Shown here in pieces: positions 2,005 through 34,960 of a DNA stretch of 38,228 nucleotides. Positions within the stretch are counted from its first letter, which is position 1. The number at the start of each line of letters is the position of its first letter. The stretch is from a virus: positions 1 through 38,228 of the IMG/VR virus record IMGVR_UViG_3300046777_001599. The stretch is one strand, 5' to 3'. A program made the translations under genes and the position numbers. The notes beneath the pieces were generated by a model that made no database searches, was not told the DNA's origin, and saw nothing but the letters and a program-made list of their open reading frames with translations.

Positions 2005-3014
2005 TAGAAAATCTCCGTGTACTGGCTGGGCGTATTTTGAGCACGTTCTACCTTGGCCTTTTCGCGAGCATAGTCTTCAATGCTGATCCCGAGCTTACGG
2101 GCTTCTTCACGATCTGCCTGGGTAATAGAGACGCGCAACTTACCAGAGACTGAGGCTGGAGCCGAGCGGTTTTGAATGGTGGGGTTGTTGGCTGGTTGAC
2201 GAGCAGGCGCAGAAGCTTTACCGCCTAACTTGTGGGGGAACTCTTTGCGAAGCCGCTTATCCAGTTCGTCGAAGTAGTCTGGGTCGGTCGGAGAGTAGCC
2301 GTCTGCAACCATCTGCTGGTCAAGGGTTTTAGCCCCTGAAGTCATGACGGCATCCTTGCCAAACCAGTCTTTGTTGCGCTCGTACCATTCAACAGCGGCT
2401 GGATTAGGCTGCCGTCGAGCAGGGGCTTGAGCGGGTTGTTGACGGGTAGGCGATGGAGGCAACGGTTCAGTTTGCCTGGGGGTTGGGATGGACTGCTTGT
2501 CTTTTTCAGCCTGTTGCCGGGCCGCCATGATCGAGGCAATTTGTTGCTGAATCTCAAAGATTTTGTCCCGGTCACCAGCATCGTAGGCGGAATCAAAGTC
2601 CCGGCGCAGAGCCTGCATCGAGGTATCGAGCTGTTTGATGTAAAGCTCAAAGCCTAGGGAGGCCCCCTCATTAGCCTTGGCTTCGGCGTTGCGAGCACGG
2701 TCCTCGAGAGCTTGGATACGGGCTTGCGTTTCCGACAATTGTCTGGCATAAGCATCTCGCTGGTTTTTGAGACGCTGGCTGCGAGTTAGCTTTTTACGTT
2801 CTGAGGGAGTTTCAGGTGAGGAATCGTCTTCGTCGGGATCGTCTTCTTCAGAAGAAGTTGCAGCAGCGGCTTCGCGAACCGTTGGTTGTGGAGCGGGTTC
2901 TGGAGCTGCTGGCGCTTCAATCTCTTCGACGATCTCAATGTCGGATTCTTGCCCGGAAGCTAAGGCTTTGTCGGGATTATCGAGATCGATTTCTTGGTAA
3001 CCGGATTCGGACAT
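2004..3014 (-). CDS. Capsid scaffolding/assembly protein
   Basis: This encodes 336 aa with an ATG at 3014. The composition is typical of scaffolds. The N-terminal 85 residues are strongly acidic, with runs of Glu and Asp. Residues about 85-170 form a charged helical coiled coil rich in Gln, Ala, Arg and Glu, followed by a Pro/Gln-rich linker and a charged C-terminal helix. No enzymatic motif is present. It sits directly upstream of the capsid genes, where scaffold genes normally lie in portal-scaffold-capsid orders. Scaffolds direct coat-protein assembly into procapsids and then leave. Sequence conservation in this class is poor, so the call rests on composition and position. Confidence 0.72.
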
Positions 3015-3017
3015 AGG

Positions 3018-3434
3018 TTATTCCTTAAAGTTGGCGTCAAGGTATTCAGGCTGTTCAACGACTAGCTCGATGCTGGAGGCTTTGATGAGAAGAAGTTTGA
3101 CACCCTTCCACCAAATCTTCTGGCCTGCGAACTTAGCGTAAACGATGTAGTCTCCCGGCTTGACCCAAGGACCTTTCCGATATATGTCCTCGTCGACGAA
3201 AGCGAGTTCGCCCAAAGAAAGGACACGACCCACAGTGTTGAGGTATTCACGATCTTCACGGAATGTGTCAGGGAGTAGGATACCGCCCGCTGATTTGCGC
3301 CTAATAGGCACAGGCCGGACAAGAATCCCTACGCCAGGAATCCTAGGCAGTGGTGTCGGATCAGGAATATCTTCCTGTGAAACCCACTGGTCATTGGTAA
3401 CGGCCCCATCTAGAGCCGAGCGAGTGGTAAGCAT
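3018..3434 (-). CDS. Phage-encoded GroES-like co-chaperonin
   Basis: This encodes 138 aa with an ATG at 3434. Residues 34-125 follow the GroES/Cpn10 fold pattern: GVGILVRPVPIRRK at the start of the barrel, KSAGGILLPD at 47-56, matching the KSAGGIVL mobile loop of E. coli GroES, a GRVLSLG strand near 80, and KPGDYIVYAKFAG near 105, matching the conserved GD-V strand. The loop tripeptide ILL would contact GroEL. About 30 residues precede the domain. GroES homologues of phages (T4 gp31 is the classic case) help host GroEL fold the capsid protein. Its place inside the capsid operon, between portal and scaffold, fits this job. No phage GroEL is visible in the window. Confidence 0.85.
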   Translation of the reverse strand: MLTTRSALDGAVTNDQWVSQEDIPDPTPLPRIPGVGILVRPVPIRRKSAGGILLPDTFREDREYLNTVGRVLSLGELAFVDEDIYRKGPWVKPGDYIVYAKFAGQKIWWKGVKLLLIKASSIELVVEQPEYLDANFKE

Positions 3435-3625
3435 TAGTCCCTTTCCTCAATAGGAGTAGATTGGTAGAGGTCTTTTAGGATGTTGATGGCAAGACCTAAG
3501 CCACTGATAACGCCGCATTTACGAGCGTATTCGTCGAAGGATGTAGCTGCACCCCTAGCGAGGGCGTCCTTTTCTGAGTCGATTCGTTTTTGAACTTCAG
3601 ATACGTAGTCCGATAGAAAGGTCAT
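3434..3625 (-). CDS. Small conserved helical phage protein next to portal
   Basis: This encodes 63 aa with an ATG at 3625. The ATG overlaps the end of the portal gene by four bases, and its own stop overlaps the GroES start by one base, so it is in a tightly coupled operon. It is predicted to be a helical hairpin with EVQKRIDSEKDALARG, then ARKCGVISGLGLAINILKDL. Similar short helical proteins are common beside portal genes in podoviruses, but their function is not known to me. Confidence 0.65.
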   Translation of the reverse strand: MTFLSDYVSEVQKRIDSEKDALARGAATSFDEYARKCGVISGLGLAINILKDLYQSTPIEERD

Positions 3626-5958
3626 GTCGTAGGTTGATTGGCCCGTTCTGCTAAACGTTTAGCTTGAATATCCGCTAATTTTGCAGAATTGTCAAGTATT
3701 TTTCCAGTTGCTGCGATCTGGGTTTGCTTCTGTTGGTTTTGGGCTTTGAGCAGCATATCAGTTTCTTTGAGGTCTAGCTCGCGGTTCTTAATGGCTAGGC
3801 TGGCAGATTCGCGGGCATCTTGAGATTGAATACGCTTTTCAGCTAGTTGGAGTTCAGCGGCATTGAGTTGGATCATCTGCTGTTCGATGGAAGGACCGCC
3901 GCCACCCTGGCCAGACTCTGCCGAGATTTGAACGAGTTGGGTTGCGATCTGCGCTTGAACGTTGTCATCGTCGAGAGGCATCCCCATCTGCTGGGCAAGT
4001 TGCATAGCCTGGGCAATGAACATTAGGACTTTGTGTTCAGAGATGTTGGCGACCAAAGCTTGCTGACCAACGGCGATTGTGGGATCATTGGTACCTTGCA
4101 TCTGGGGCGCCTTGAGGAAAGCCTCTTTGACGGCGATGTGGGCCGCGTGGTTTTGGCCGAGTTGGGCTTTGATTGGTTTGCCTTGCATGGCTGCCTGGAC
4201 TTCGGAGAGGGGATCAGCACTGACAGCATTGGCTTCTGGGTTGGTTAGGAGCTTGTCGATGGACTCGGTACCGAGAGCCTGATAGAACCGCCGCAGAGCC
4301 TCGCGCATATCATGGAGTTGAGGGAACTGTTGGGCGGTCTGTAGTTCGATCTGGGCTTTGGCTACCCGCTGGGATTCTGTAAGGGCATTGGGGTCAGAGG
4401 CTGGGATAACGTCAACTACTTCGGGATTAAAGTCAGTGCGTTGGACAAATTGGTTTTCAGCACCCACCACAAAGTTGATGACGTCGGGCAGGTTCTCGAA
4501 GTTTAGTTCGCCCAACAGCTTGAGGAATTCACCTTGGGATTGGTGGAGCCGCTTGTGAATGGAGGAGTAGAAACGCTGGGAAGCTTCGAGCAGGGCTAGG
4601 GTAGTTGCGACAGGGCCGTAGTTAGAGCTTTGGGCTACCACCTCGTCAGTAGAGTCCGCGAACTTCTGGCCCGAATCCACCATGAACTTTAGGAGGGTGA
4701 AGAGCGTTTGAGAGGGCTCTTTAGTGGGAAGCGGGAGGAAGGCCTTTTGGAGTTCTTCGGGAGACAGATTGACGTCACGGAATTCGCCGAAGCCCAGAGG
4801 AGTGTCAGAGTCGGAGAACTTGGCGTCCTGGGATTTGAAGCCCGCTGTCCAATTGGCGTATTGACCGGAGTCGACCAGGGCACGAAGAGCTGCGGATGCA
4901 GCGGCAGCAAGGTCACCGATAAGATGGACGAAGCCTAGGCCATAGATGCCGAAAGCAGGAATGAACTGGTCGATGGTGTACCAGATGCGCTTTTGCATGA
5001 CCGGATCAGCTTCCCGCCAGTTACGACGGATGGAGTAGACATTGCCGGTCTTGGTATTGAAGTGGACAATGTAGGGAGCTATGCCGCCTTCGGGCAACAG
5101 ATGGTCAGCACCATTGAGGTCCAGGTAGCAGTGGGATTCACCGACTGAATAGCCCTTGCGCTCCAGCGATAAGTCGAAACCTTGGGCATTGGCGATGGCT
5201 TCGGTGATCTCGTTGGTGTCTAGGGTTTCTTCGCCGTCTGTTTCAGGAGCCTCGAGGAAGGTACCAGAAGCGATTAGGTTATCCATCTTGCGGGCGGATA
5301 GTTCCATAATCTCGATGTATTCTTCGGCGTCTTTGAGATGGGGGACGGATGGATCGACGTAGAAGTTTTCAGCGTAGACGATGGCCGGGTCGGGACTATT
5401 GGTGACGGTGTTCCAGCCCGCTTTACGGATGCCCGAACCCATGAAGCCGACACGGAATAGATTGCGCTCCAGATCGTTGTAGAAGCCCGGCACCTGTTCC
5501 GTGAGTTGGTAATTCATGTAGGTACGGACCCGCTGGGAAATCTGTTCGCGGGCAGCATCGACATAGCCACGGACTTTGGTGCGGACGGGACCCTTAGCTG
5601 GCCACAGTTCTTGAATGGCTTTGGCTTGGAACTTTACGATGTTCTCGATGAGGAGGGGGTGGACCGCAGTGCAGGCACCTTCAACGTCGATGTTACCCTC
5701 GTCTTCTGTGTTGAGGCCCAGGTACTTGACACCCTTCTTGATCTTTTCTTCCCAATCTTGACGGGCGTTCTTGAAGGATTGGAGAGCGTCTTGACGGGCA
5801 GAGCCGATGTCTGTAAGGATGGCTTCTTCTAGATTGACGGCAAGGTTGGCGCCAAAGGACATGTCGACTTCGACGACCTCTTCGGGAACATCGATCTCGA
5901 GGCTCTCTTCGGAGAATTCAAATTCGATGTCGGGGGTTTCTTCGAGATTATCGGACAT
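3622..5958 (-). CDS. Portal (head-tail connector) protein
   Basis: This encodes 778 aa with an ATG at 5958, overlapping the end of the large terminase gene by 11 bases. The length matches the large portals of P22-type and related podoviruses. The N-terminal 45 residues are acidic. A long middle segment contains a WNTV...FYVDPS...EY pattern typical of portal wings. The C-terminal third is a Gln/Ala-rich helix (about residues 620-778) likely to form the barrel or tunnel-proximal coil. The portal forms the dodecameric ring through which terminase packages DNA and to which the tail attaches. Position right after the large terminase is diagnostic. Confidence 0.87.
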   Translation of the reverse strand: MSDNLEETPDIEFEFSEESLEIDVPEEVVEVDMSFGANLAVNLEEAILTDIGSARQDALQSFKNARQDWEEKIKKGVKYLGLNTEDEGNIDVEGACTAVHPLLIENIVKFQAKAIQELWPAKGPVRTKVRGYVDAAREQISQRVRTYMNYQLTEQVPGFYNDLERNLFRVGFMGSGIRKAGWNTVTNSPDPAIVYAENFYVDPSVPHLKDAEEYIEIMELSARKMDNLIASGTFLEAPETDGEETLDTNEITEAIANAQGFDLSLERKGYSVGESHCYLDLNGADHLLPEGGIAPYIVHFNTKTGNVYSIRRNWREADPVMQKRIWYTIDQFIPAFGIYGLGFVHLIGDLAAAASAALRALVDSGQYANWTAGFKSQDAKFSDSDTPLGFGEFRDVNLSPEELQKAFLPLPTKEPSQTLFTLLKFMVDSGQKFADSTDEVVAQSSNYGPVATTLALLEASQRFYSSIHKRLHQSQGEFLKLLGELNFENLPDVINFVVGAENQFVQRTDFNPEVVDVIPASDPNALTESQRVAKAQIELQTAQQFPQLHDMREALRRFYQALGTESIDKLLTNPEANAVSADPLSEVQAAMQGKPIKAQLGQNHAAHIAVKEAFLKAPQMQGTNDPTIAVGQQALVANISEHKVLMFIAQAMQLAQQMGMPLDDDNVQAQIATQLVQISAESGQGGGGPSIEQQMIQLNAAELQLAEKRIQSQDARESASLAIKNRELDLKETDMLLKAQNQQKQTQIAATGKILDNSAKLADIQAKRLAERANQPTT

Positions 5959-13899: not shown

Positions 13900-16167
13900 T
13901 TACTTGCTGTCTTTCATGGACTGCACACCACGCCAGACAGTGCCCCCATCATCCGTGATGAAGACGAATACGTCCGTGCCAGAAGATGTGAGGGTAGGCG
14001 CTGTACCGCTAGGCCACTTGGTTGCGGAGGGCCATGTCACAGTTGCTGCACCACCATTGGCGAGTTCCAAGATGAAGCCCCCTGCTGCACCGCCATTAGC
14101 TGCCGATACGGGAGGATTGGCAAACACAAAGGTAGTACTACCAGCCGCAGTCACCATGAAGTAATTGCCGTCCAGCATGTCTAGGGTAGCAGTCGCTGAT
14201 ACGTTGCCCCTAATGACTGCCGTGATAGCGTAGTCCTTGAACTTGGGGCGCGTCACTAGGTTGTCGGCCATGTTCAGTTCGCCGGACATAGTGTCGCCAG
14301 CCTTCAGGACCCGCTGACCAATCGACACCACAGCCGCCGACACTGCCGCCGACACCGTACTAACTCGGATTTCGAGGGCGCTTACGACATTGTTGATGGA
14401 AGTGATAGCTGCTGAATTGGCGACATTAGTTGCTGACGCCGCACTGACTCGGATTTCAAGCGCCGATACGACGTTGTTAGTAGAGGTAAGTGCTGCCGAT
14501 ACATTGTTGACTTGAATCTGTAGAACACTGATAGACACAAAGGCCACTGAAGTACGAGCAGACACTGCGACAAGAACATTGTTCGTAGAGGTCAAAGCCG
14601 CTGATACGTTATTGACTTGGACCTGTAAGGCGCTTACAGATGCAGAAACGGCAGCAATGGCTACAGCGTTGACAGAAGTTCTAGATGATACGGCTGCGAT
14701 GACTGTATTGGCTGATACAACTGCCGCAGATACTGCGCTGACGCGAATCTCAAGGGCTGACACCACGTTGTTAGTGGAAGTGAGTGCTGCCGATACTGCG
14801 TTGATTTGGATTTGGAGGGCGCTAACCGAAGCAGATACTGCGGCCACCCGAATATCAAGAGCAGAAACTGCGGCTGACACTGTGCTGACCCGAACTTCAA
14901 GGGCTGATACAGTGCCTTCAAGGCTGGCAACAGCAGTAACAAGAGCCGCGATAGCAGATACGTTACCAATATTCGAGACCGCGATTTCGAGAGTGGATAC
15001 GCGAACTTCAAGAGCCGATACTACATTGTTGGTAGATGTAATGGCTGCGGCATTAGTGGAAGCAAGGGCGCTGACAGCGGCCACCTGAATGTTAAGCGCC
15101 GACACAGAGGCTTGGGTGTTGATGAGGGCAGTAGAGTTGGTCCAGACGCCTGCGCTGGTGTTGTAGGCGAGGACTTCACCGTCGGTCAAGGATGTGCTGG
15201 TGGAAGTTTTGACGTCGTGGAGTTCACCCAGTTCGTAGCCGTTCTGCACCTTGATGTAGACGGAACCGCCCCCGACTGAGCCGCCCTTGACGACATAGCC
15301 CATTTGGACTAGGTGCTGGGGCGCGACGGGCTTGGTAGCAGTTAGTTCGCCAGCCGAGACCGGAGACAAGTAAACGATCTGACCATCAGTGAAGGCGAAA
15401 GTGTTTACGTTATTGACGACACCGTCAGTGGCTACGAAGCCGGAAGCATTGACTGAAACGTCTTCAAGCATGATACCGAGAATGGTAGCACTATCCATAT
15501 CGGAGTCAGCTTGCGCCAGATCGACAGTAAGCTTCTGACCCGAGGCACCTGTGACCTTGACGACCTTGCCCTTGAGAAGGGTAGCAGCACTGTTGTTGAA
15601 GCAGTAGACAACTTCACGCTGACCAAGCAACAGATTGGCATTACCACCCACAAGACCCAGATCGAGGGTGCCATGCGTGATGTCCCAAGTCAAGCGCCCA
15701 ACCGACGCTGCAAATGAAGTGGAAGTATCAAATTCGATGTATTGGACGCTGTCGAGGTAGTCGCCGACCCGGTCGGCCTTGGTAGAAACGACCGCATTGA
15801 CAGACGTAATAGAGGCCGAATTGGCAACACCAGTAGCAGAAACGGCGCTGACACGCACCTCAAGAGCAGATACAGAAGCGGCAAGAGAAACTGCCGTTGC
15901 AGACACAGCATCAATACGAGCGTCATAAGTAGCCACAACGCCATTCAAAGAAGTGATAGCAGCCGCATTAACAGAGGTTAAGGCAGAAACTTGGTCGATT
16001 TGGGTTTGGAGGGCCGAGACAACAGGGCTAATAGATACGATGGCGAAGGCAGCAATAGTAGAGACAGTGGTTTGAAGGGTACCGCTATTTTGGACAATGG
16101 GAACTAATTCGGCTCCGGTAAGTGGACCTGCCGTTGTAAGTTCTGAGATTTTTTGCGAAGTCGCCAT
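13900..16167 (-). CDS. Long tail fibre/side fibre with heptad-repeat shafts
   Basis: This encodes 755 aa with an ATG at 16167. Order: an N-terminal MATSQKISELTTAGPLTGAE adaptor; a first Ala/Ser/Val repeat shaft to about residue 130; a folded domain of about 130-330 (EFDTSTSFAASVGRLTWDITHGTLDLG, REVVYCFNNSAATLLKGKVV) of the type seen in many fibre knobs; a long second shaft to about 620 with many units of VSALEIRVSAVSA and VSALQIQVNNVSAALTSTNNV; and a C-terminal domain shared with the next gene. The repeats form a trimeric coiled coil or fibrous rod. The protein is the first of three fibre-type genes transcribed together from the promoter at 16196-16224. Confidence 0.8.
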   Translation of the reverse strand: MATSQKISELTTAGPLTGAELVPIVQNSGTLQTTVSTIAAFAIVSISPVVSALQTQIDQVSALTSVNAAAITSLNGVVATYDARIDAVSATAVSLAASVSALEVRVSAVSATGVANSASITSVNAVVSTKADRVGDYLDSVQYIEFDTSTSFAASVGRLTWDITHGTLDLGLVGGNANLLLGQREVVYCFNNSAATLLKGKVVKVTGASGQKLTVDLAQADSDMDSATILGIMLEDVSVNASGFVATDGVVNNVNTFAFTDGQIVYLSPVSAGELTATKPVAPQHLVQMGYVVKGGSVGGGSVYIKVQNGYELGELHDVKTSTSTSLTDGEVLAYNTSAGVWTNSTALINTQASVSALNIQVAAVSALASTNAAAITSTNNVVSALEVRVSTLEIAVSNIGNVSAIAALVTAVASLEGTVSALEVRVSTVSAAVSALDIRVAAVSASVSALQIQINAVSAALTSTNNVVSALEIRVSAVSAAVVSANTVIAAVSSRTSVNAVAIAAVSASVSALQVQVNNVSAALTSTNNVLVAVSARTSVAFVSISVLQIQVNNVSAALTSTNNVVSALEIRVSAASATNVANSAAITSINNVVSALEIRVSTVSAAVSAAVVSIGQRVLKAGDTMSGELNMADNLVTRPKFKDYAITAVIRGNVSATATLDMLDGNYFMVTAAGSTTFVFANPPVSAANGGAAGGFILELANGGAATVTWPSATKWPSGTAPTLTSSGTDVFVFITDDGGTVWRGVQSMKDSK

Positions 16168-16195
16168 TCTACCTGTCCAGTCCTGTTAGCGGACA

Positions 16196-16224
16196 AGTAT
16201 AACATAATTAAGGAATATATTCCA
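16196..16224 (-). promoter_or_regulatory. Promoter of fibre operon, extended -10 type
   Basis: On the minus strand the -10 is TATACT (16201-16196) preceded by TGT, giving an extended -10. A 17-base spacer separates it from TGGAAT (16224-16219). The layout matches the RNR promoter at 18998-19026 (TGGAAA, 17 bases, TGTTATACT). A perfect 12-base palindrome GGAATATATTCC at 16212-16223 overlaps the -35 and may be an operator. The fibre ATG is about 22 bases past the expected start site. Confidence 0.6.
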
Positions 16225-16234
16225 GTCTAGGAAC

Positions 16235-16501
16235 TTAGCCTTGATTTTGCTCATCAGGTTCTTCGTCGTCATCTTTGGGCTCGAATACCATGTCAAAGAG
16301 GGTGTCGACCATTCCTTTTACTAAACAGGTGGAAAAGGGTATGGAAGTGGCTTTGACTGCGCCTTCTTCTTCCCAGGCTATTAGGATAGCGGAGGGATTG
16401 CGGGAGAGCACCTTGGAGATTACGGCAGCCACCTTGCGCTCAAGGTTGACCATCTCCGTAAACTCCTCGATGACCTCCTCTTTAGAGAGTTGAAAAGACA
16501 C
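16235..16501 (-). CDS. Small acidic protein, function unknown
   Basis: This encodes 88 aa from a GTG at 16501. A first helical region (SKEEVIEEFTEMVNLERKVAAVISKVL) is followed by a short beta-like stretch (SAILIAWEEEGAVKATSIPFS) and a very acidic tail (EPKDDDEEPDEQNQ). It begins six bases after the end of the upstream 72-aa gene, so the two are probably cotranscribed. The upstream Shine-Dalgarno is weak. I do not recognise the family. The acidic tail could bind a basic protein or mimic DNA, but nothing proves that. Confidence 0.55.
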   Translation of the reverse strand: MSFQLSKEEVIEEFTEMVNLERKVAAVISKVLSRNPSAILIAWEEEGAVKATSIPFSTCLVKGMVDTLFDMVFEPKDDDEEPDEQNQG

Positions 16502-16507
16502 CGGGAC

Positions 16508-16726
16508 CTATGGCTGTTTTTCGTTGTTAGTGAGGAAGTCCATTTGTTCAGCATCGTCGAAAAGGTCGTCGGTCATTTCCATGATTTCGGCGACGAGTTC
16601 GTCAGCAATGCCTTGGGCCTCCTTGAGGTTGGTGATTTCGAACTCCTCAAGGTAGTCTGGTTCATCTTCTAGCGAAGATACCTTGAAGACCCAAGTCCCA
16701 TCTGAGTATACAACCGAGAATTGCAT
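16508..16726 (-). CDS. Small acidic protein, function unknown
   Basis: This encodes 72 aa. ATG 16726 is chosen over the TTG four codons upstream because GGAG lies six bases before it. The first 20 residues (MQFSVVYSDGTWVFKVSS) look like beta strands. The rest is an acidic helix rich in Glu, Asp and Met (KEAQGIADELVAEIMEMTDDLFDDAEQMDFL). It lies just downstream of the intrinsic terminator that ends the RNR operon and upstream of the 88-aa gene. No family is recognised. Confidence 0.55.
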   Translation of the reverse strand: MQFSVVYSDGTWVFKVSSLEDEPDYLEEFEITNLKEAQGIADELVAEIMEMTDDLFDDAEQMDFLTNNEKQP

Positions 16727-22557: not shown

Positions 22558-22773
22558 ATGACCTTCCATGAAGCCTGCCGTTCTATCGTAGCTCACCAAG
22601 GCGTCCGTTCCCTTAACTATGCCATTGCCTACGCCAAACACGGCCTCCTAGTCTCCGATCCCTATGAACAAAAGGTCCAGGCCCTCTACATCCTAAACAA
22701 CATCACTCACTGGCGAGGCGACATAGCTAAGCGAGTCCGCGAATCCCTCAAAGCCGTCTCGAAAGGAGCCTAA
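22558..22773 (+). CDS. Small early protein, unknown function
   Basis: This encodes 71 aa with an ATG at 22558 and AGGAG nine bases upstream. It appears all helical: TFHEACRSIVAHQGVRSLNYAIAYAKHGL, then DPYEQKVQALYILNNITHWRGDIAKRVRESL. The pattern of a short cytoplasmic helical bundle is common in early phage proteins. Its last codons (KGA) contain the AAGGAG site of the next gene. Confidence 0.65.
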   Translation: MTFHEACRSIVAHQGVRSLNYAIAYAKHGLLVSDPYEQKVQALYILNNITHWRGDIAKRVRESLKAVSKGA

Positions 22774-22776
22774 CCC

Positions 22777-23103
22777 ATGCCCTTCTATCATTACGATCAG
22801 AACAACTCTGGCGGAGCGTTTATGGAACCCGCCCTCAACGTATTCATCGAGGCTTCCAGTGATGAGGAAGCTGACACCATCGCCGAAGCCAACGGTATCT
22901 ACTTCGATGGTGTGGATGAAGACAAGGATTGCCCATGCTGCGGTGATCGTTGGTCCCGTGCTCGTAACTGGAAATCCTTAGCAGACGAAGCCGCCGTCGA
23001 AGCCCGCCTAGAAGCTACCACTAAGTGGGACGAAGGCTGGGCCAAATCCAGTAACGTCCCCATCAGTCTCATCATCCGCAAACCCACCCCTCAAGGAGCC
23101 TAA
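22777..23103 (+). CDS. DUF7296-like protein with a CxxC-type motif
   Basis: This encodes 108 aa with an ATG at 22777. The start PFYHYDQNNSGGAF and the later EANGIYFDGVDEDKDCPCCGDRW segment match a phage family (DUF7296, as I recall) that keeps the YHYxQNNSGG and CxCCGDRW patterns. The CPCC cluster may bind a metal. The function of the family is unknown. It is translated with AAGGAG seven bases ahead and is the second gene of the early run. Confidence 0.72.
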   Translation: MPFYHYDQNNSGGAFMEPALNVFIEASSDEEADTIAEANGIYFDGVDEDKDCPCCGDRWSRARNWKSLADEAAVEARLEATTKWDEGWAKSSNVPISLIIRKPTPQGA

Positions 23104-23106
23104 CCT

Positions 23107-23325
23107 ATGGAATTCAAACCTATCGAAGACCTCGACGGCGATCTCCTCCACCTAAAATGGGTGCATGGTAGCTTCGAAGCTAGATTCCACAACACCCTAT
23201 CAGTAGAGATCGAGATGGTTACTACAGTCGCCAATCCATGCATCTACTTCAACGCTGACCAGCTTCGAGACCTAGCTAAAGTGCTGATCGACGCTGCCAC
23301 CTTCCTAGACAAACAAGGAGCCTAA
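23107..23325 (+). CDS. Small early protein, unknown function
   Basis: This encodes 72 aa with an ATG at 23107 and AAGGAG upstream in the same junction as its neighbours. The first 45 residues look like beta strands (DLLHLKWVHGSFEARFHNTLSVEIEMVTTVANP) and the last 25 form a helix (NADQLRDLAKVLIDAATFLDKQ). No family was recognised. It ends in QGA because the next ribosome site overlaps its last codons. Confidence 0.62.
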   Translation: MEFKPIEDLDGDLLHLKWVHGSFEARFHNTLSVEIEMVTTVANPCIYFNADQLRDLAKVLIDAATFLDKQGA

Positions 23326-23328
23326 CCC

Positions 23329-23433
23329 ATGAACAAGTGTCTTGAGCTGTGCCTGATTGGCTTTTCGCTCTCTTTCATATCGGCCATTTGGGTGCTAATT
23401 GTGATTGAAATCCTCACCTTCCTGGGCTATTGA
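23329..23433 (+). CDS. Single-pass membrane micropeptide
   Basis: This encodes 34 aa with an ATG at 23329 and the same AAGGAG-CCTAACCC-ATG junction as the two genes before it, which is the main support. The sequence is a single hydrophobic helix (LCLIGFSLSFISAIWVLIVIEILTFLG) with a charged start (MNKCLE). It would insert in the inner membrane. Small membrane peptides of phages can affect host membrane or defence proteins, but nothing specific is shown here. Confidence 0.6.
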   Translation: MNKCLELCLIGFSLSFISAIWVLIVIEILTFLGY

Positions 23434-23442
23434 GGAGGGGTG

Positions 23443-23458
23443 CCTCACTTCGGTGGGG
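23443..23458 (+). other. UUCG tetraloop hairpin in the early operon
   Basis: CCTCAC (23443-23448) and GTGGGG (23453-23458) pair around TTCG, closed by a C-G pair, a very stable loop in RNA. No T-run follows, so it is probably not a terminator. It lies in the 104-base gap between two micropeptide genes and may stabilise or direct processing of the mRNA. Confidence 0.55.
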
Positions 23459-23537
23459 TGCTTCCAGAGCTAGTCATAAGGGCTGGTTCCGGCAGCATCC
23501 GCTGTCCCTTCCAAACGCTACCTAAGGAGTAGCATCT

Positions 23538-23633
23538 ATGTCAAAACCCTTTCACTGGTTGCCTCGTATTAAGCGGGGCGCGTTAGGATGGCTTTACATT
23601 CGCTGGGGCCACAAGCTCTGGAGGATTTGGTAA
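23538..23633 (+). CDS. Basic, tryptophan-rich micropeptide
   Basis: This encodes 31 aa with an ATG at 23538 and AAGGAG eight bases upstream (23524-23529). Its stop overlaps the next ATG by one base (TAATG). The sequence is basic and aromatic (PFHWLPRIKRGALGWLYIRW, then GHKLWRIW), resembling an amphipathic cationic peptide. Good ribosome site and coupled junction support translation. Function unknown. Confidence 0.58.
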   Translation: MSKPFHWLPRIKRGALGWLYIRWGHKLWRIW

Positions 23634-23869
23634 TGAGCGCCACCAAACCCCGTAAAGCTCCGGCCCACTTCTATGACGTTCTGTTTACCAACAGAAAACA
23701 AATCATAGAATTGCTGGAAGACCTTCGCGATACCTATTCAGTCTTGGCTAAGAGCGGCTCTTACACTGACTACAGGCTGGCTAATGCTCGCCAAGCAGCC
23801 ATTGCCAAAGGAATCTTAGCCGTCGTCGATGCTTGTGACGCCTATCCCTACAAAGGAGACATAGCCTAA
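23633..23869 (+). CDS. Small helical early protein, unknown function
   Basis: This encodes 78 aa. ATG 23633 is chosen over an in-frame start 15 codons upstream because it overlaps the stop of the micropeptide (TAATG). It contains a basic start (SATKPRKAPAHFY), then helices NRKQIIELLEDLRDTYSVLAKSG and RLANARQAAIAKGILAVVDACD. Its own stop overlaps the next ATG by one base. No family was recognised. Confidence 0.62.
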   Translation: MSATKPRKAPAHFYDVLFTNRKQIIELLEDLRDTYSVLAKSGSYTDYRLANARQAAIAKGILAVVDACDAYPYKGDIA

Positions 23870-25067: not shown

Positions 25068-27182
25068 ATGCTTCTATCTCAAGAGCGTGATCCGATCATC
25101 TCCAACGGCCTTGGGGCTGGCAATAATTTCACAATTGCTGCCTCTCCCAAAGCCTTCGAGGTCCTTTCCTCCAACCTCTATCAGGACAAAGTGCTTGCCG
25201 TCATCCGTGAAATAAGCTGCAATGCAGCCGATGCTCACACCTCAGTAGGCAAGCCGCTCTCCGACATTCAGGTCCATCTTCCTAGCTTCTCCGAACCTTA
25301 CTTCTCTGTTCGTGACTTTGGTCCCGGCCTAGCTCAAGCCGATGTCATGGAACTTTACACCACCTATTTCCGTTCCACTAAAGACCACTCCAATGATCTC
25401 ATCGGCGGCTTTGGTCTAGGTTCTAAGTCTCCCTTTGCTGTCGCCGATCAATTCACTGTCACCTCTTGGCACAAAGGAACCAAGACCCAATACATCTGCT
25501 ACAAAGAGGACGGTCTTCCCCGTGTCAACTTCGTAGCAAGCTCTTCCTCTACCGAACCAAGCGGACTAGAAGTCAGGGTCGCTACCAAAAGCACTGCTGA
25601 CTGGTCCTCCAAAGCCTCCAACTACTACCAGTGGTGGCCAGAATTACCCACCATTTGTAACGCTTCCCATTTACGTATCGAATCCCTCTCTTCCCGCCTT
25701 GCATTCAAGTCCGAAACAACTCTCAACGGGTTGCCTACATGGGGAATCCTAAAGAACTTTCAGGCTCCCATCATCCTCGTAGGACTTGTTCCTTATGCCC
25801 TGAACGTCGAGATGCTGCGGCCCTACCTTGGCGATGAGGTCTTCAAGATTATCTCGGGGGGCAGCATTTTCATCAACGTTCCCATCGGATTCGTGGAGAT
25901 CAGTCCGTCTCGTGAAGCGCTTTCCTACAACAGGGCCACGATAGATTTCCTGAAAGAGGCTTGCAACAAAGTCGCTAGGGAGATCGTCCTGACTGCCAGC
26001 AAAGAGATAGATGCTCAGCCCACCCTCTTTGAAGCTCGCCGTTTTATCTTTGGCCCTACCTCCCACTCCTCTAACTATCTGATAGAGTCGTTGCGGAGGA
26101 TAGCTTCTTCCGGCAAGCTCAAGTGGAGAAACAAAACATTAGGGCACTACATCAATCTAGATTTGCCCAATGATTTCTCTGCTCCAGCAACCGTAACCCA
26201 CTATCAAAAGCGCTACCACTGGGTCAACTTCCAAAAGTCTTTGACCAGCACCAACCAGCACACCTTTCAATCTGGTTATGTCTGCCAAGATGACCTGCAT
26301 TTGGTGTGGGCTCCTAAACTAACGGGCGGTCTCTACTCAAAACTTAGGCACAACTACCTAAACCCTGCCCAAGGTAAGCAAGAACTAAACTTTTACATCT
26401 TCACAGGCATGCCTTTCTCCGAGCTAGAAGCCTATTGTCAGGACAAGGGTTTACCTGATCCCGTCAATGCCGACGACTTAGAAGAGGCTCCCAAGGCAGA
26501 GTCCTCCCCTAACGCTACCCCTAAAACCCAGGGCTATGTCTTCACCTTCGAAGACAATTCCATCAACTATGAGAGGACAACTACTCCCCTCAATCTGGCA
26601 GGTGGCGGGCTCTACATCCGCTTCATGGACGGTCACCCCATGGGAAATGCTCGGACCCAATTCAGTATGCTGCGGCGTGCCGGTCTAATCCCAGACAACA
26701 TTCGCCTAGTAGGTATCTCTTCTTCAACCCTCAAGACTAAGCGCGTCCAACAAATGCTAGCCCTTCACGGTTGGCAAGAATTCAATTCAACTTGGACGGC
26801 AGCCAACATCACTGACAAGCAGGTCTACGATAGGGCTCTTACCGTTCGCCTAACTAGGGAACTGCTTGGTCAGTATGCCGGATTCCTCAATGAGTTTCGG
26901 TCAGCTATGTCAGGCCAAAAGATTTTGCCGGGCGCCGAAAAGTTCATCAAGTTATTGACCACTCACTTCCCGGCTGGTCCCTTGTCTTCCCCTTATGGAG
27001 AGGCCAACCCTCTAGGCCAATGGGCTTCCCCTACTCAACAACAGGCCCTTGACAAGGTGGAAACCTACATGCAAGACTTGCAAACAGCCTGGAAGGAATT
27101 CCTCGCTGCCCATCCCATGCTCAACTATACGGACATGGCTCGTCTTCCCAAGCACATCTTCAACGATTACATCAACCGCTGA
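25068..27182 (+). CDS. rIIA-like protein with GHKL-type ATPase fold
   Basis: This encodes 704 aa with an ATG at 25068. The N-terminal domain has the three boxes of the Bergerat (GHKL) ATP-binding fold: REISCNAADAH with Glu48, Asn52 and Asp55; VRDFGPGL with Asp83-x-Gly85-x-Gly87; and GGFGLGSKS at 113-121. A segment with FVEISPSREALSY near 280 matches the transducer-type domain. The C-terminal half is unassigned. This is the architecture of phage rIIA proteins, membrane-associated factors of T4 that act with rIIB in exclusion and lysis control. The rIIB-like gene follows directly. Confidence 0.88.
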   Translation: MLLSQERDPIISNGLGAGNNFTIAASPKAFEVLSSNLYQDKVLAVIREISCNAADAHTSVGKPLSDIQVHLPSFSEPYFSVRDFGPGLAQADVMELYTTYFRSTKDHSNDLIGGFGLGSKSPFAVADQFTVTSWHKGTKTQYICYKEDGLPRVNFVASSSSTEPSGLEVRVATKSTADWSSKASNYYQWWPELPTICNASHLRIESLSSRLAFKSETTLNGLPTWGILKNFQAPIILVGLVPYALNVEMLRPYLGDEVFKIISGGSIFINVPIGFVEISPSREALSYNRATIDFLKEACNKVAREIVLTASKEIDAQPTLFEARRFIFGPTSHSSNYLIESLRRIASSGKLKWRNKTLGHYINLDLPNDFSAPATVTHYQKRYHWVNFQKSLTSTNQHTFQSGYVCQDDLHLVWAPKLTGGLYSKLRHNYLNPAQGKQELNFYIFTGMPFSELEAYCQDKGLPDPVNADDLEEAPKAESSPNATPKTQGYVFTFEDNSINYERTTTPLNLAGGGLYIRFMDGHPMGNARTQFSMLRRAGLIPDNIRLVGISSSTLKTKRVQQMLALHGWQEFNSTWTAANITDKQVYDRALTVRLTRELLGQYAGFLNEFRSAMSGQKILPGAEKFIKLLTTHFPAGPLSSPYGEANPLGQWASPTQQQALDKVETYMQDLQTAWKEFLAAHPMLNYTDMARLPKHIFNDYINR

Positions 27183-27197
27183 AAGGAAACCAAACCT

Positions 27198-28019
27198 ATG
27201 ATTCCCTACATCATCAAGACCAACTCCCTCGCCTTGTTTCCCTCGGGCAAAGCTCCCATCCTAATCGACTCTGCCCATGTAAACTTTCAGGCAGTCGTCG
27301 ACGCCATCTCAAAACAGGATTGGGACTTAGCCGTCGAGCTGGCTTCCGTCGTTGCCTACGTTTCCAAGACTAGTCACGGCAATGTCTCCCTCTCTGAGGA
27401 AGGTCTCTTCTATAAGGGCGTCCCGCTGACTGGATACCTAGCCGACAAGCTGACAGGCTTCTTCAATAGCGGCTTGCCAATCGATCACTACTGCAAGTTC
27501 GTTGACAACCTCATGGCCAATCCATCCATGACTAGCCGCAACGAACTCTTCCTATTCTTAGAGGCTGCCAATCTTCCCATCACTGAGGACGGTTGCTTCC
27601 TCGCTTACAAGGCAGTTCGTTCCGACTTCAAGGACAAGCACTCAGGTAGGTTCGACAATTTCCCAGGCGTTACTCATGAGATGCTGCGTCATGATGTTGA
27701 CGACAATCGCAATCAGACCTGTAGCTATGGCTTCCATGCTGCTGCCTACCAATACGCCAAGAACTTTATGTCCGGCAATGACAAGCTGGTTGCAGTCAAG
27801 ATCAATCCTGCCGACGTAGTATCCGTGCCTTCCGATTACGACAATCAAAAGTTACGGACCTGCAAATATACAGTAGCCTTCGAGATCAAAGACGCTGCCG
27901 ACATCTTCAAGGACCAGCACTTCGCCACCTCAGTAGAACCGGAATATGATCCTGAGGAAAACTCCTACTTCTGGGGCGACGTTTGGAATGAGGATGAGGA
28001 CGGTCCCTGGCGGTCGTAA
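27198..28019 (+). CDS. rIIB-like protein
   Basis: This encodes 273 aa with an ATG at 27198 and AAAGGAA upstream. The middle and C-terminal parts carry the rIIB signature: FLEAANLPITEDGCFLAYKAVRSDFKDKHSG, then MLRHDVDDNRNQTCSYGFHAAAYQYAKNF and VKINPADVVSVPSDYDNQKLRTCKYTV. These occur in T4 rIIB and in many phage homologues. The acidic tail is short. It is 15 bases after the rIIA-like gene and is followed by an intrinsic terminator, so the two form the end of a transcription unit. Confidence 0.87.
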   Translation: MIPYIIKTNSLALFPSGKAPILIDSAHVNFQAVVDAISKQDWDLAVELASVVAYVSKTSHGNVSLSEEGLFYKGVPLTGYLADKLTGFFNSGLPIDHYCKFVDNLMANPSMTSRNELFLFLEAANLPITEDGCFLAYKAVRSDFKDKHSGRFDNFPGVTHEMLRHDVDDNRNQTCSYGFHAAAYQYAKNFMSGNDKLVAVKINPADVVSVPSDYDNQKLRTCKYTVAFEIKDAADIFKDQHFATSVEPEYDPEENSYFWGDVWNEDEDGPWRS

Positions 28020-32074: not shown

Positions 32075-32268
32075 TGTGCCGCAACACTGTCCCCACCCTG
32101 CGCGTTCTTCAAGAGTGGAGCCGCAATGAAGAAGGCATACCCTATCCTGCAAAGTATGCCATTCAATATCAAGACAAGCATGGCGATTGGAAAAATGTTC
32201 CAGTAGTTAATCGCATGCCAGACCCTGTCCAGTTGGAGTTGCCTCTTGAAGATCGCCCTCGTAGTTGA
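32074..32268 (+). CDS. Small protein, unknown function
   Basis: This encodes 64 aa with an ATG at 32074, coupled to the previous stop (TGATG). It contains LRVLQEWSRNEEGIPYPAKYAIQYQDKHGDWKNVPVV and an acidic LQLELPLEDRPRS-like tail. It overlaps the polymerase-exonuclease gene by 23 bases; the latter's TTG start uses a GGAG inside this gene. Function unknown. Confidence 0.58.
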   Translation: MCRNTVPTLRVLQEWSRNEEGIPYPAKYAIQYQDKHGDWKNVPVVNRMPDPVQLELPLEDRPRS

Positions 32269-33190
32269 TTGGCCATCGGCTGATCGTATGCCCGGCAACT
32301 TCATGTCAGAGTGGGAGTGGAATGTAACTCTCGAACTGATGAAGATTGCCAACCTAAAAGTGGATCGCCTGTCCATAGCCTACCGCGCCTACACCCAGAA
32401 GTGGCCCACCCTTTTCCGAGACTACAAGGTAGGTGGCGATCTCACACTCCTGGCCCAAGCTGATCGAGCCAAACTAATCAAGGACCTTGAAGGCTTCGAC
32501 ATGGCTTTGACCATGGGTCCCCACGCTATGTTCTGCCTGACAGGCGAAACCAAACTAGACACCTATCGCGGCACCCATATTGACAGCCCCTTTGTACCCG
32601 GCCTTCAGGTGGTGCCCACTTATTCTCCTGCTATCTACGCAAGGCTTGCCTGGAATGAACGGCCAATCGTAGTTTCCTCCATGCGTAAAGTCCAACAGCG
32701 CTTTGTAGATAAGCCGCGAACCATTTACATTCCAGAAACAGTTGCTGATCTGTACGCATTTTCCACGAAGCACATCGGCAGTGAAATCGTCTTCGACGTA
32801 GAGACCTGTAAGTCAGGCCGCATCACCGAGTTCTCGGTTGCCCCTTCCTCAGACTGCTGCCTCTACGTCCAGCTAGAAGACCGAGCCTTCAATCACATCT
32901 GGTCAGAGCAGGACGAACTCGACATCTGGTTGTGGATTAAATTCCTAGCCAACAGGAAAGATTTGGCATGGGGATTCCACAATGCGACTTATGACTTGAC
33001 ATACCTCGACGCCTATGATATTCGTCCTAAAGGCCACATATTCGATACGATGCTTCGGCATCATGCATGGCAACCGGAGTGGGAAAAATCGCTGGGCTTC
33101 CTAGCATCTCTCCACCTACCGACCCGAGCATGGAAGCACCTTCGAACTAAGGCCAAGAAGGACTTCAACAAGGCAGGGGCAATTGACTAA
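32246..33190 (+). CDS. DNA polymerase A, exonuclease part (Exo I and II) with uracil-DNA-glycosylase-like N-terminus
   Basis: This encodes 314 aa from a TTG at 32246, with GGAG seven bases upstream. Residues 1-150 resemble a family-4 uracil-DNA glycosylase: VVDWPSADRMPGNF at the start, MGPHAMFCLTG at 90-100 and VVPTYSPAIYAR at 122-132, where active enzymes have His in the place of Ser127. From 178 the chain is a DnaQ-type 3'-5' exonuclease: Asp184 and Glu186 in VFDVETC (Exo I), and Asn246 to Asp250 in FHNATYD (Exo II). A polymerase of this family would continue with Exo III, but the ORF stops at 314. Exo III occurs at the start of the ORF at 33521, in the same frame. Confidence 0.82.
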   Translation: MKIALVVDWPSADRMPGNFMSEWEWNVTLELMKIANLKVDRLSIAYRAYTQKWPTLFRDYKVGGDLTLLAQADRAKLIKDLEGFDMALTMGPHAMFCLTGETKLDTYRGTHIDSPFVPGLQVVPTYSPAIYARLAWNERPIVVSSMRKVQQRFVDKPRTIYIPETVADLYAFSTKHIGSEIVFDVETCKSGRITEFSVAPSSDCCLYVQLEDRAFNHIWSEQDELDIWLWIKFLANRKDLAWGFHNATYDLTYLDAYDIRPKGHIFDTMLRHHAWQPEWEKSLGFLASLHLPTRAWKHLRTKAKKDFNKAGAID

Positions 33191-33198
33191 ACACAAAC

Positions 33199-33226
33199 TG
33201 TCGGTAAATCTAAATAAGTACCGACA
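33199..33226 (+). repeat. Inverted repeat at the left edge of the polymerase-splitting segment
   Basis: TGTCGGTA (33199-33206) and TACCGACA (33219-33226) are perfect inverted 8-base arms around a 12-base AT-rich loop. It lies nine bases after the exonuclease stop and two bases before the next ATG. No T-run follows, so it is not a typical terminator. It could control translation of the inserted gene or mark a junction. Confidence 0.65.
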
Positions 33227-33228
33227 TA

Positions 33229-33555
33229 ATGGTTGACGATGATTCTAGCATACGGCGGCTGTGGGCTTCAGTAATAGTTCAAGCACTGATCGACGCCACT
33301 TCAATACCCAAGACCCCAGCCGCCACTGTTCATAAACGTCAAGCACAAGCATGGCTTACCGCAGAGTACGGCACCACTGCCCAGAACTTCGACGAAGTAT
33401 GTCTGGCTGCTGACCTTGATCCATACCGTGTCCGCAAGTTTGTCCGCAACTACGAGGGTCCTCCCTTGACACTGCACATTCTGGCCCGTATGCGTAACTC
33501 CTTCCTCAAAGGAGACTCCCATGAAGACAATCACGGACCTGACACCGACTCCTGA
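33229..33555 (+). CDS. Gene inserted between polymerase parts, unknown function
   Basis: This encodes 108 aa with an ATG at 33229. No clear Shine-Dalgarno is seen, and a hairpin lies two bases before the start. The sequence (SSIRRLWASVIVQALIDATSIP, AQAWLTAEYG, NFDEVCLAADLDPYRVRKFVRNY) resembles a small helical protein family found in phage replication modules, without known activity. It shows none of the motifs of homing endonucleases (LAGLIDADG, GIY-YIG, HNH). It is read in another frame than the two polymerase ORFs and overlaps the downstream one by 35 bases. Confidence 0.66.
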   Translation: MVDDDSSIRRLWASVIVQALIDATSIPKTPAATVHKRQAQAWLTAEYGTTAQNFDEVCLAADLDPYRVRKFVRNYEGPPLTLHILARMRNSFLKGDSHEDNHGPDTDS

Positions 33556-34960
33556 AAACCAGGAGATCATCTATAATTCACTTGACACTATGCAAACAAT
33601 GGCCCTCAAAGAAACATTTGACGGGGGTCTTATTCCTGATTGGGCGAAGCCGGGATACACCTACAGCGAACTAATGCTGGGCCCCATTCTCACGATGATG
33701 CGACGGGGTGTCCAGATCGATACAGCCAAGCGTGACATCCTAGTTGCTGCTCTTCAAGAACGGGCGGCCAAGGTCCAAGCCAATCTCGATTACGTTTGTG
33801 AAACACTGTGGGGCACCAGCTTCAACCATAACTCAACGCCTCAACTCATCTTCCTTTTCTACTCGCTGCTCGCCATCCCCGAACAAACCAAATCCAAGAA
33901 GGGTGAAACCAAAGTTGCCACCGACCGCGAGGTCCTAGAAAGGATATCCCGTGACTACATCAGAGGCGCCTTCTTCGCCAACCATATCCTCCGCATCCGC
34001 GATCTCGAAAAGCAGATCGAGTTCCTATCCAAGAAGTTGTCCCCCGCCAACCGCTTCCATGCTTCGTTCAATATCGCGGGCACTGAGACGTTCCGACTTT
34101 CATCTAGTGAACATCCGTTCCGTATCGGGTCTAATCTTCAAAACATTCCGAAAGAAGCGCGCACCTGTTTCGTCGCGGACCCCGGATATGTATTGTTCTA
34201 TTCGGATCAACAGGGTGCGGAAGCTCGCATCGTTGCTTATCTTTCGGGAGATGAAAACTACATCGCCGCAGTTGAAGGTGGTGACTCACACACGATGGTC
34301 GCTTCGATGGTCTTCGGTTTCCCGCCAGACAGGGAGCTTGCTGAACGTGAATACTATCGCGGCTATTCATATCGTGACATCACGAAGCGGGGCGCCCATG
34401 GAAGTAACTACTACGGCAAACCGTACACTCTGGCGCAGCAAATGAAGGTGGAGACTGAGGTAGCAACAGCCTTCCAGGCTATGTATTTCAGGCGCTTCCC
34501 TGGCATCTCTGACTGGCATGTGTGGGTGGCCAAGCAGCTTCAGACCAAGGGCTATCTGAACACTCCCTTTGGCATGCGTCGTACCTTTTGGAATAGGCGC
34601 TGGGATGATGCCACCCTCCGTGAAGCCATTGCCTTTGTGCCTCAGCATTGTGTCGGCGTCCTCATGAACATCGGCATCTACAATTTGTGGGAACGCTTCG
34701 AAGGTAAGCCCGGCGCCGACGTCCAAATCCTTCTCAATTTGCATGACGCAGTTCTGGGTCAAGTCCGTATCGACAAGGCCGACGAACTGTTGCCCCAAGT
34801 TCTTGAATGCCTTAGCTTTCCTTTCCCGGTAACCGATATCAAGGGCACCACCCGCGAAATAAATATTCCATTCGATGTGGAAATAGGTTACAACTGGGGT
34901 AAGGCCAGCGACAAGAACCCTGACGGCCTTAAAAAATGGAGGCCCCATGGCAAGGCATGA
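33521..34960 (+). CDS. DNA polymerase A, polymerase part with Exo III motif
   Basis: This encodes 479 aa with an ATG at 33521 and AAAGGAG seven bases upstream. Residues 18-22 (YNSLD) match the Exo III Tyr-x3-Asp motif. Then come the template-side GTETFRLSS...NLQNIP region at 187-210, motif A with Asp229 and Glu234 in SDQQGAEARIVAYLSGD, motif B with Arg285, Lys289 and Tyr297 in RDITKRGAHGSNYYG, and motif C with His408-Asp409 in NLHDAVLGQ. The residue matching Phe762 of E. coli Pol I is His293, and motif C has Ala after Asp where many enzymes have Glu. The polymerase should be active; exonuclease activity needs the upstream ORF product. Confidence 0.92.
   Translation: MKTITDLTPTPENQEIIYNSLDTMQTMALKETFDGGLIPDWAKPGYTYSELMLGPILTMMRRGVQIDTAKRDILVAALQERAAKVQANLDYVCETLWGTSFNHNSTPQLIFLFYSLLAIPEQTKSKKGETKVATDREVLERISRDYIRGAFFANHILRIRDLEKQIEFLSKKLSPANRFHASFNIAGTETFRLSSSEHPFRIGSNLQNIPKEARTCFVADPGYVLFYSDQQGAEARIVAYLSGDENYIAAVEGGDSHTMVASMVFGFPPDRELAEREYYRGYSYRDITKRGAHGSNYYGKPYTLAQQMKVETEVATAFQAMYFRRFPGISDWHVWVAKQLQTKGYLNTPFGMRRTFWNRRWDDATLREAIAFVPQHCVGVLMNIGIYNLWERFEGKPGADVQILLNLHDAVLGQVRIDKADELLPQVLECLSFPFPVTDIKGTTREINIPFDVEIGYNWGKASDKNPDGLKKWRPHGKA

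Follow-up and report, generated by a model that had tools for sequence, protein, structure and literature searches.

Organization of the polymerase locus

We analyzed a 38,228-base IMG/VR virus record (the window), which carries genes for terminase, portal and tail proteins, RIIA/RIIB, ribonucleotide reductase, thymidylate synthase and dUTPase. The RIIA-like and RIIB-like genes lie at 25068-28019 of what is a small phage genome (38-kb record). Family-A polymerases with a 3'-5' exonuclease are usually single polypeptides; here the enzyme is encoded by two ORFs on the plus strand. The upstream gene, N (32246-33190, 314 aa), encodes a degenerate uracil-glycosylase-like (UDG-like) N-terminal region and the first part of the exonuclease domain, with Exo I (D-V-E, in which Asp and Glu are the metal ligands; 32795-32803), Exo II (N-A-T-Y-D; 32981-32995) and a C-terminal tail (FNKAGAID; 33164-33187). 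The downstream gene, C (33521-34960, 479 aa), encodes an N-terminal leader (MKTITDLTP; 33521-33547), the Exo III helix (Y-N-S-L-D; 33572-33586) and the thumb, fingers and palm of the polymerase. Between them is gene X (33229-33555), also on the plus strand, which encodes a small all-helical protein of 108 aa. The end of X contains a Shine-Dalgarno-like AGGAG (33510-33514) positioned 6 nt upstream of the ATG of C. When we re-examined the sequence, the ORFs, their coordinates and the reading frame that N and C share were all as claimed in a preliminary description of this DNA, and the AGGAG supported its proposal that C is translated separately from its own ribosome site.

Profile searches divided a single polymerase between the two genes. 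In the window, Pfam DNA_pol_A matched C at 3.7e-43 while DNA_pol_A_exo1 matched N weakly. N matched positions 559-781 and C positions 807-1242 of the DNA polymerase family PHROG 17, with a gap of ~25 profile positions between the matches. Similarly, the N-chain profile aligned to the Exo I/II-bearing part of E. coli Klenow structures, and the C-chain profile aligned to the same structures from a point shortly ahead of Exo III through to their end. Comparison with unsplit homologues placed the cut in the loop that leads into the Exo III helix, so that Exo I and Exo II reside on N and Exo III on C; the cut is thus inside the exonuclease fold, as had been described. We considered whether N and C form a new kind of polymerase and rejected this, since every motif was that of an ordinary family-A enzyme.

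The split is widespread and defines a single clade

An IMG/VR search seeded with C identified 39 close relatives and one seeded with X identified 33 loci; all of these loci that were long enough carried N, X and C in the window's order. Searches seeded with alignments used polymerase motifs only and reached relatives at 31-68% identity, and a query with C of Caulobacter phage Kuura alone returned one contig. Five contigs from bacterial MAGs also matched (Acidobacteria, Sphingomonadales, Terriglobia, Phycisphaerae and Sulfurovaceae), the binning of phage contigs being weak evidence of host. Among the classified loci, 249 were split (the same contig being repeated among loci), and unsplit genes occurred only in outgroup phage records. 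Dereplication at 82% identity left 78 N/C pairs, a count of polymerase-found relatives that keep enough upstream DNA. All 78 pairs were cut at the same place, at C identities of 28-80%, so related phages do share the split of the window. The searches, which relied on polymerase motifs only, found no unsplit member of the clade. Loci without N were contigs that ended too soon, apart from two. In L081, both genes were present on the same strand, 6.2 kb apart (N, 22745-23782; C, 15137-16519; both minus). L211 (PV759140.1), from a T5-like phage of Klebsiella, falls outside the clade and represents a separate two-ORF case; the annotation divides its polymerase (2069-4638) into two ORFs close to the same point, and the overlapping frames suggest a frameshift or a sequence error.

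To place the split on a phylogeny, we used 97 polymerase rows and IQ-TREE with a quick search. The 83 split rows formed one clade with an SH-aLRT of 99, and the nearest unsplit rows were L071 (MW202489) and L072 (Microcystis phage Mel-JY34). L071, the closest unsplit relative checked, encodes UDG, exonuclease and polymerase within a single ORF, and the two halves form one chain in the unsplit homologues L071, L116, L118 and L119. The simplest reading is that the split arose once and did not revert. A two-ORF polymerase was also found in L117 (MW202554.1, 1727-4364), where the cut lies just after Exo III; this locus falls outside the clade on the tree, and its split is a separate, independent event.

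N combines a UDG-like domain with the exonuclease core

The preliminary description had noticed neither how widespread the arrangement is nor that N joins a UDG fold to exonuclease sequence. A UDG-superfamily domain makes up the first 190 residues of N in most of the clade members tested (Pfam, 1e-8 to 2e-22), and N of relatives also matched type-4 UDG structures in the PDB. The unsplit L071 likewise has a UDG-superfamily domain ahead of the exonuclease, and this UDG-exonuclease-polymerase layout is the SPO1-polymerase architecture. In N of the window, the UDG region was recognized only through alignment to relatives, the UDG motifs having been lost in the window lineage. UDG motifs were missing from N in 20 of 20 loci with X, while 43 of 58 loci lacking X retained at least one. 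This link could reflect shared descent of a few lineages.

Both chains carry conserved new ends at the junction

In unsplit homologues, ~20 residues separate a conserved WK from the Exo III tyrosine. The N chains of the clade stop 15-25 residues past the WK, typically at K-[KRA]-[DE]-[DE], a pattern found at this end in most of the clade, and the C chains start 20-45 residues ahead of the Exo III tyrosine. The leader of C follows the clade-wide motif M-[KP]-I-I-x-T-x-x-L, with hydrophobic residues filling the second I position in 99% and the L position in 95%; unsplit proteins have no room for it, and it is predicted to form a beta-strand in the model of locus L108. Each chain thus has a conserved new end, a tail on N and a leader on C.

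The divided exonuclease site is conserved

We assessed the catalytic residues in the dereplicated pairs. The Asp and Glu of Exo I were invariant in the 77 N chains that cover the site (the single missing cell being a gap), the N and D of Exo II in 78 of 78, and the Y and D of Exo III on C in 78 of 78. The assignment of Y-N-S-L-D as Exo III was thereby borne out. Invariance on both chains held down to about 30% identity, and the residues of polymerase motifs A, B and C (D229, K289 and H408-D409 of C) were likewise invariant (78/78). The dN/dS values among close relatives were 0.04-0.15 for N and 0.04-0.09 for C, indicating purifying selection. Distances for the exonuclease part of N correlated with those for C (Mantel r 0.75, against a permutation maximum of 0.15), as expected for co-inherited partners, a correlation that shared descent alone would also yield.

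In L108, N is followed by one TAG, five codons and then C in frame. Programmed frameshifting or readthrough is conceivable only in this locus and was rejected, since it could not operate across 6.2 kb or across several intervening genes. AlphaFold2 predicted the L108 N-stop-5aa-C stretch as one compact protein (pLDDT 90.4, pTM 0.88), with a confident Exo III helix and confidence dropping only at the cut (357-364), at the N-terminus and in one loop; its best PDB matches were Klenow fragments. The model points to compatibility of the halves and not to binding, given a fused chain, a shallow alignment and a contact that is partly imposed.

Taken at the level of sequence and modelling, these results very probably reflect an ancient, stably inherited two-subunit family-A polymerase with its proofreading site at the subunit interface. 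N (UDG-like fold plus DnaQ-type exonuclease core with Exo I/II) and C (Exo III helix plus the entire polymerase) would be made from two genes of one operon and would bind each other through the cut exonuclease domain. N would supply the D-x-E and a D, and C the Y-x-x-x-D, of a two-metal site complete only at the interface; the spread of the Exo residues over N and C supports the earlier proposal that exonuclease activity would need both chains. The cut would have been a single event, directly ahead of the Exo III helix, in an ancestral phage from which a large environmental clade descends; the closest relatives of that clade retain exonuclease and polymerase in one chain. A mobile gene may have made the original break, and the gap would later have been occupied by other genes: X here, and homing endonucleases, nucleotide-metabolism genes or nothing elsewhere.

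Gene X and the interval between N and C

X was present in 20 of the 78 dereplicated loci, in two deep clades of the tree, and wherever both N and C were found it sat between them. It is predicted to be a five-helix bundle (pLDDT 83). Searches against Pfam, PHROGs, PDB folds and viral folds related it to uncharacterized phage proteins only: no PDB fold matched, all structural neighbours were of that kind, and a weak match to PHROG_30047 gave no function. The absence of homing-endonuclease motifs from X held up, as neither these nor any other Pfam match was detected. Could X be a true third subunit or assembly factor rather than a passenger, as an addition to the two-subunit polymerase? This is possible but doubtful. 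X is under purifying selection (dN/dS 0.11-0.21), persists in two deep clades, and all its homologues found (141 loci, duplicates included) sit between N and C, a location biased by a search confined to polymerase-near loci; against this, it matches no known fold and is missing from 58 of the 78 members.

The interval varied among relatives. Elsewhere the gap held nucleotide-metabolism genes (deoxynucleotide monophosphate kinase, deoxyribosyltransferase-like or pyrophosphatase-like). It was empty in several lineages (L086, L124, L249 and L253), where the stop of N and the start of C overlap as TAATG, TGATG or ATGA, an arrangement that suggests translational coupling. No mobile endonuclease was detected by Pfam between the halves in the window. 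A 182-aa HNH-AP2 gene, of the free-standing homing-endonuclease type, lies between X and C in L017 (5116-5664), L029 (4469-5017) and L059 (5408-5956); in L017 and L059, a stub of the old C start precedes this gene and a new C start follows it. The N-X gap of close relatives (L004, L009, L008, L017 and L025) is occupied alternately by two small unrelated ~90-aa families, MEKTIG... and MAEVAVSF...

The preliminary description had the polymerase split by an unrelated gene, and this picture was only partly right: the split itself was confirmed, but the cut predates the gene neighbourhood of the window, which does not support X as the splitter here. The cut is common to the whole clade whether X, other genes or nothing lies between, and X as its cause cannot be shown. 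The perfect 8-base inverted repeat reported at the left border does exist (33199-33206/33219-33226, 12-nt loop), but it marks no conserved border: the closest relatives have it in disrupted form, and it does not occur where N abuts X. As it is not conserved, we rejected it as an insertion scar.

Alternative explanations

N might also be a detachable proofreading subunit, in many members a uracil-handling one, whose docking switches the polymerase between proofreading and non-proofreading states, with the termini and X regulating the docking. We regard this elaboration as unlikely. It is improbable that the split exonuclease is dead weight, C being an exonuclease-free polymerase and N having another role. 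N does degenerate in places, its UDG part having lost its motifs in the window lineage, but neither chain shows any variation in its exonuclease residues; the conservation of Exo III in particular counts against dead weight, as a C lacking exonuclease function would have no use for it.

Elsewhere in the clade the gap is empty, holds other genes or spans 6.2 kb, so splicing, a split intein and sequencing error are excluded or very unlikely. A group I or II intron in the interval, with mRNA splicing to join N and C into one protein, would have precedent in that phage polymerase genes commonly hold introns, one having been proposed for the split polA of OM43 phages (PMC10580990). We consider it highly improbable: the interval had no Rfam match at the gathering or a permissive threshold, C begins with a start codon and leader motif of its own behind a Shine-Dalgarno site, and the two genes share 1-4 nt in some relatives but lie 6.2 kb from each other in one genome. 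N and C share a reading frame in 27 of 78 relatives, where chance predicts one third; this chance level also speaks against an intron, and the shared frame that had been remarked on is uninformative. Split inteins are known to join polymerase halves in some cyanobacteria, yet post-translational ligation of this kind is extremely unlikely here, as the extensions of N (15-25 residues) and C (20-45 residues) are too short for intein halves and neither N nor C of the window had an intein match. The possibility that sequencing or assembly error disrupted a single long gene has the shared frame as its only argument and a negligible likelihood; it is refuted by the same layout in hundreds of contigs and in the isolated phage Kuura.

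Comparison with known polymerases

The two-gene arrangement has partial parallels. Kuura (OQ067476) has the same cut, with a UDG plus exonuclease N chain (gene 029) and an Exo III plus polymerase C chain (gene 026); it differs from the window in having two other small genes between them. SPO1-type and other UDG-exonuclease-polA phage polymerases (MW202489, L071) are homologous and share the domain order but form one chain. The gp43A and gp43B of Aeromonas phages 25 and 44RR make up a two-gene replicative polymerase with a mobile gene or spacer between, and their co-purification and activity have been reported (PMC2988022); that enzyme belongs to family B and is described from few phages, whereas the present one belongs to family A. 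In the OM43 phages MEP401 and MEP402, polA is likewise divided between two ORFs, separated by a small uncharacterized ORF (PMC10580990), but the cut is inside the polymerase domain and leaves the exonuclease whole, unlike that of the window. L117 (MW202554) resembles the window in its two-ORF polA and differs in being cut after Exo III. The Aeh1 NrdA gene is in pieces by mobE and the enzyme is still active (PMC2988022); this is a ribonucleotide reductase, and the insertion occurs in a single lineage.

Polymerase genes in pieces are therefore already known, and the cut through the exonuclease at this site is new as far as we found. It is not described in the searched passages of the virioplankton polA study or the Caudoviricetes polymerase survey, those of the Kuura paper make no mention of a split polymerase, and we found no description of this cut in the open-access literature, an absence that is no proof of novelty. 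Previously described split polymerases come from few phages, while here the cut is kept in a large phage lineage with C identities down to 28%: a single catalytic fold is cut, no reversion was seen and both new ends are now conserved. The clade offers a natural, testable system for the upkeep of an active site shared between chains, and it bears on whether family-A proofreading can be a separable subunit. A survey that relied on the polymerase ORF by itself would judge such enzymes to have an incomplete exonuclease. The split also explains why N genes such as Kuura_029 are annotated as hypothetical.

Two C genes were themselves interrupted in frame within the polymerase domain by ~300 aa, with a weak intein-splicing match in L038 (1114-3462) and a LAGLIDADG match in L113 (3375-5822); these interruptions are probable inteins.
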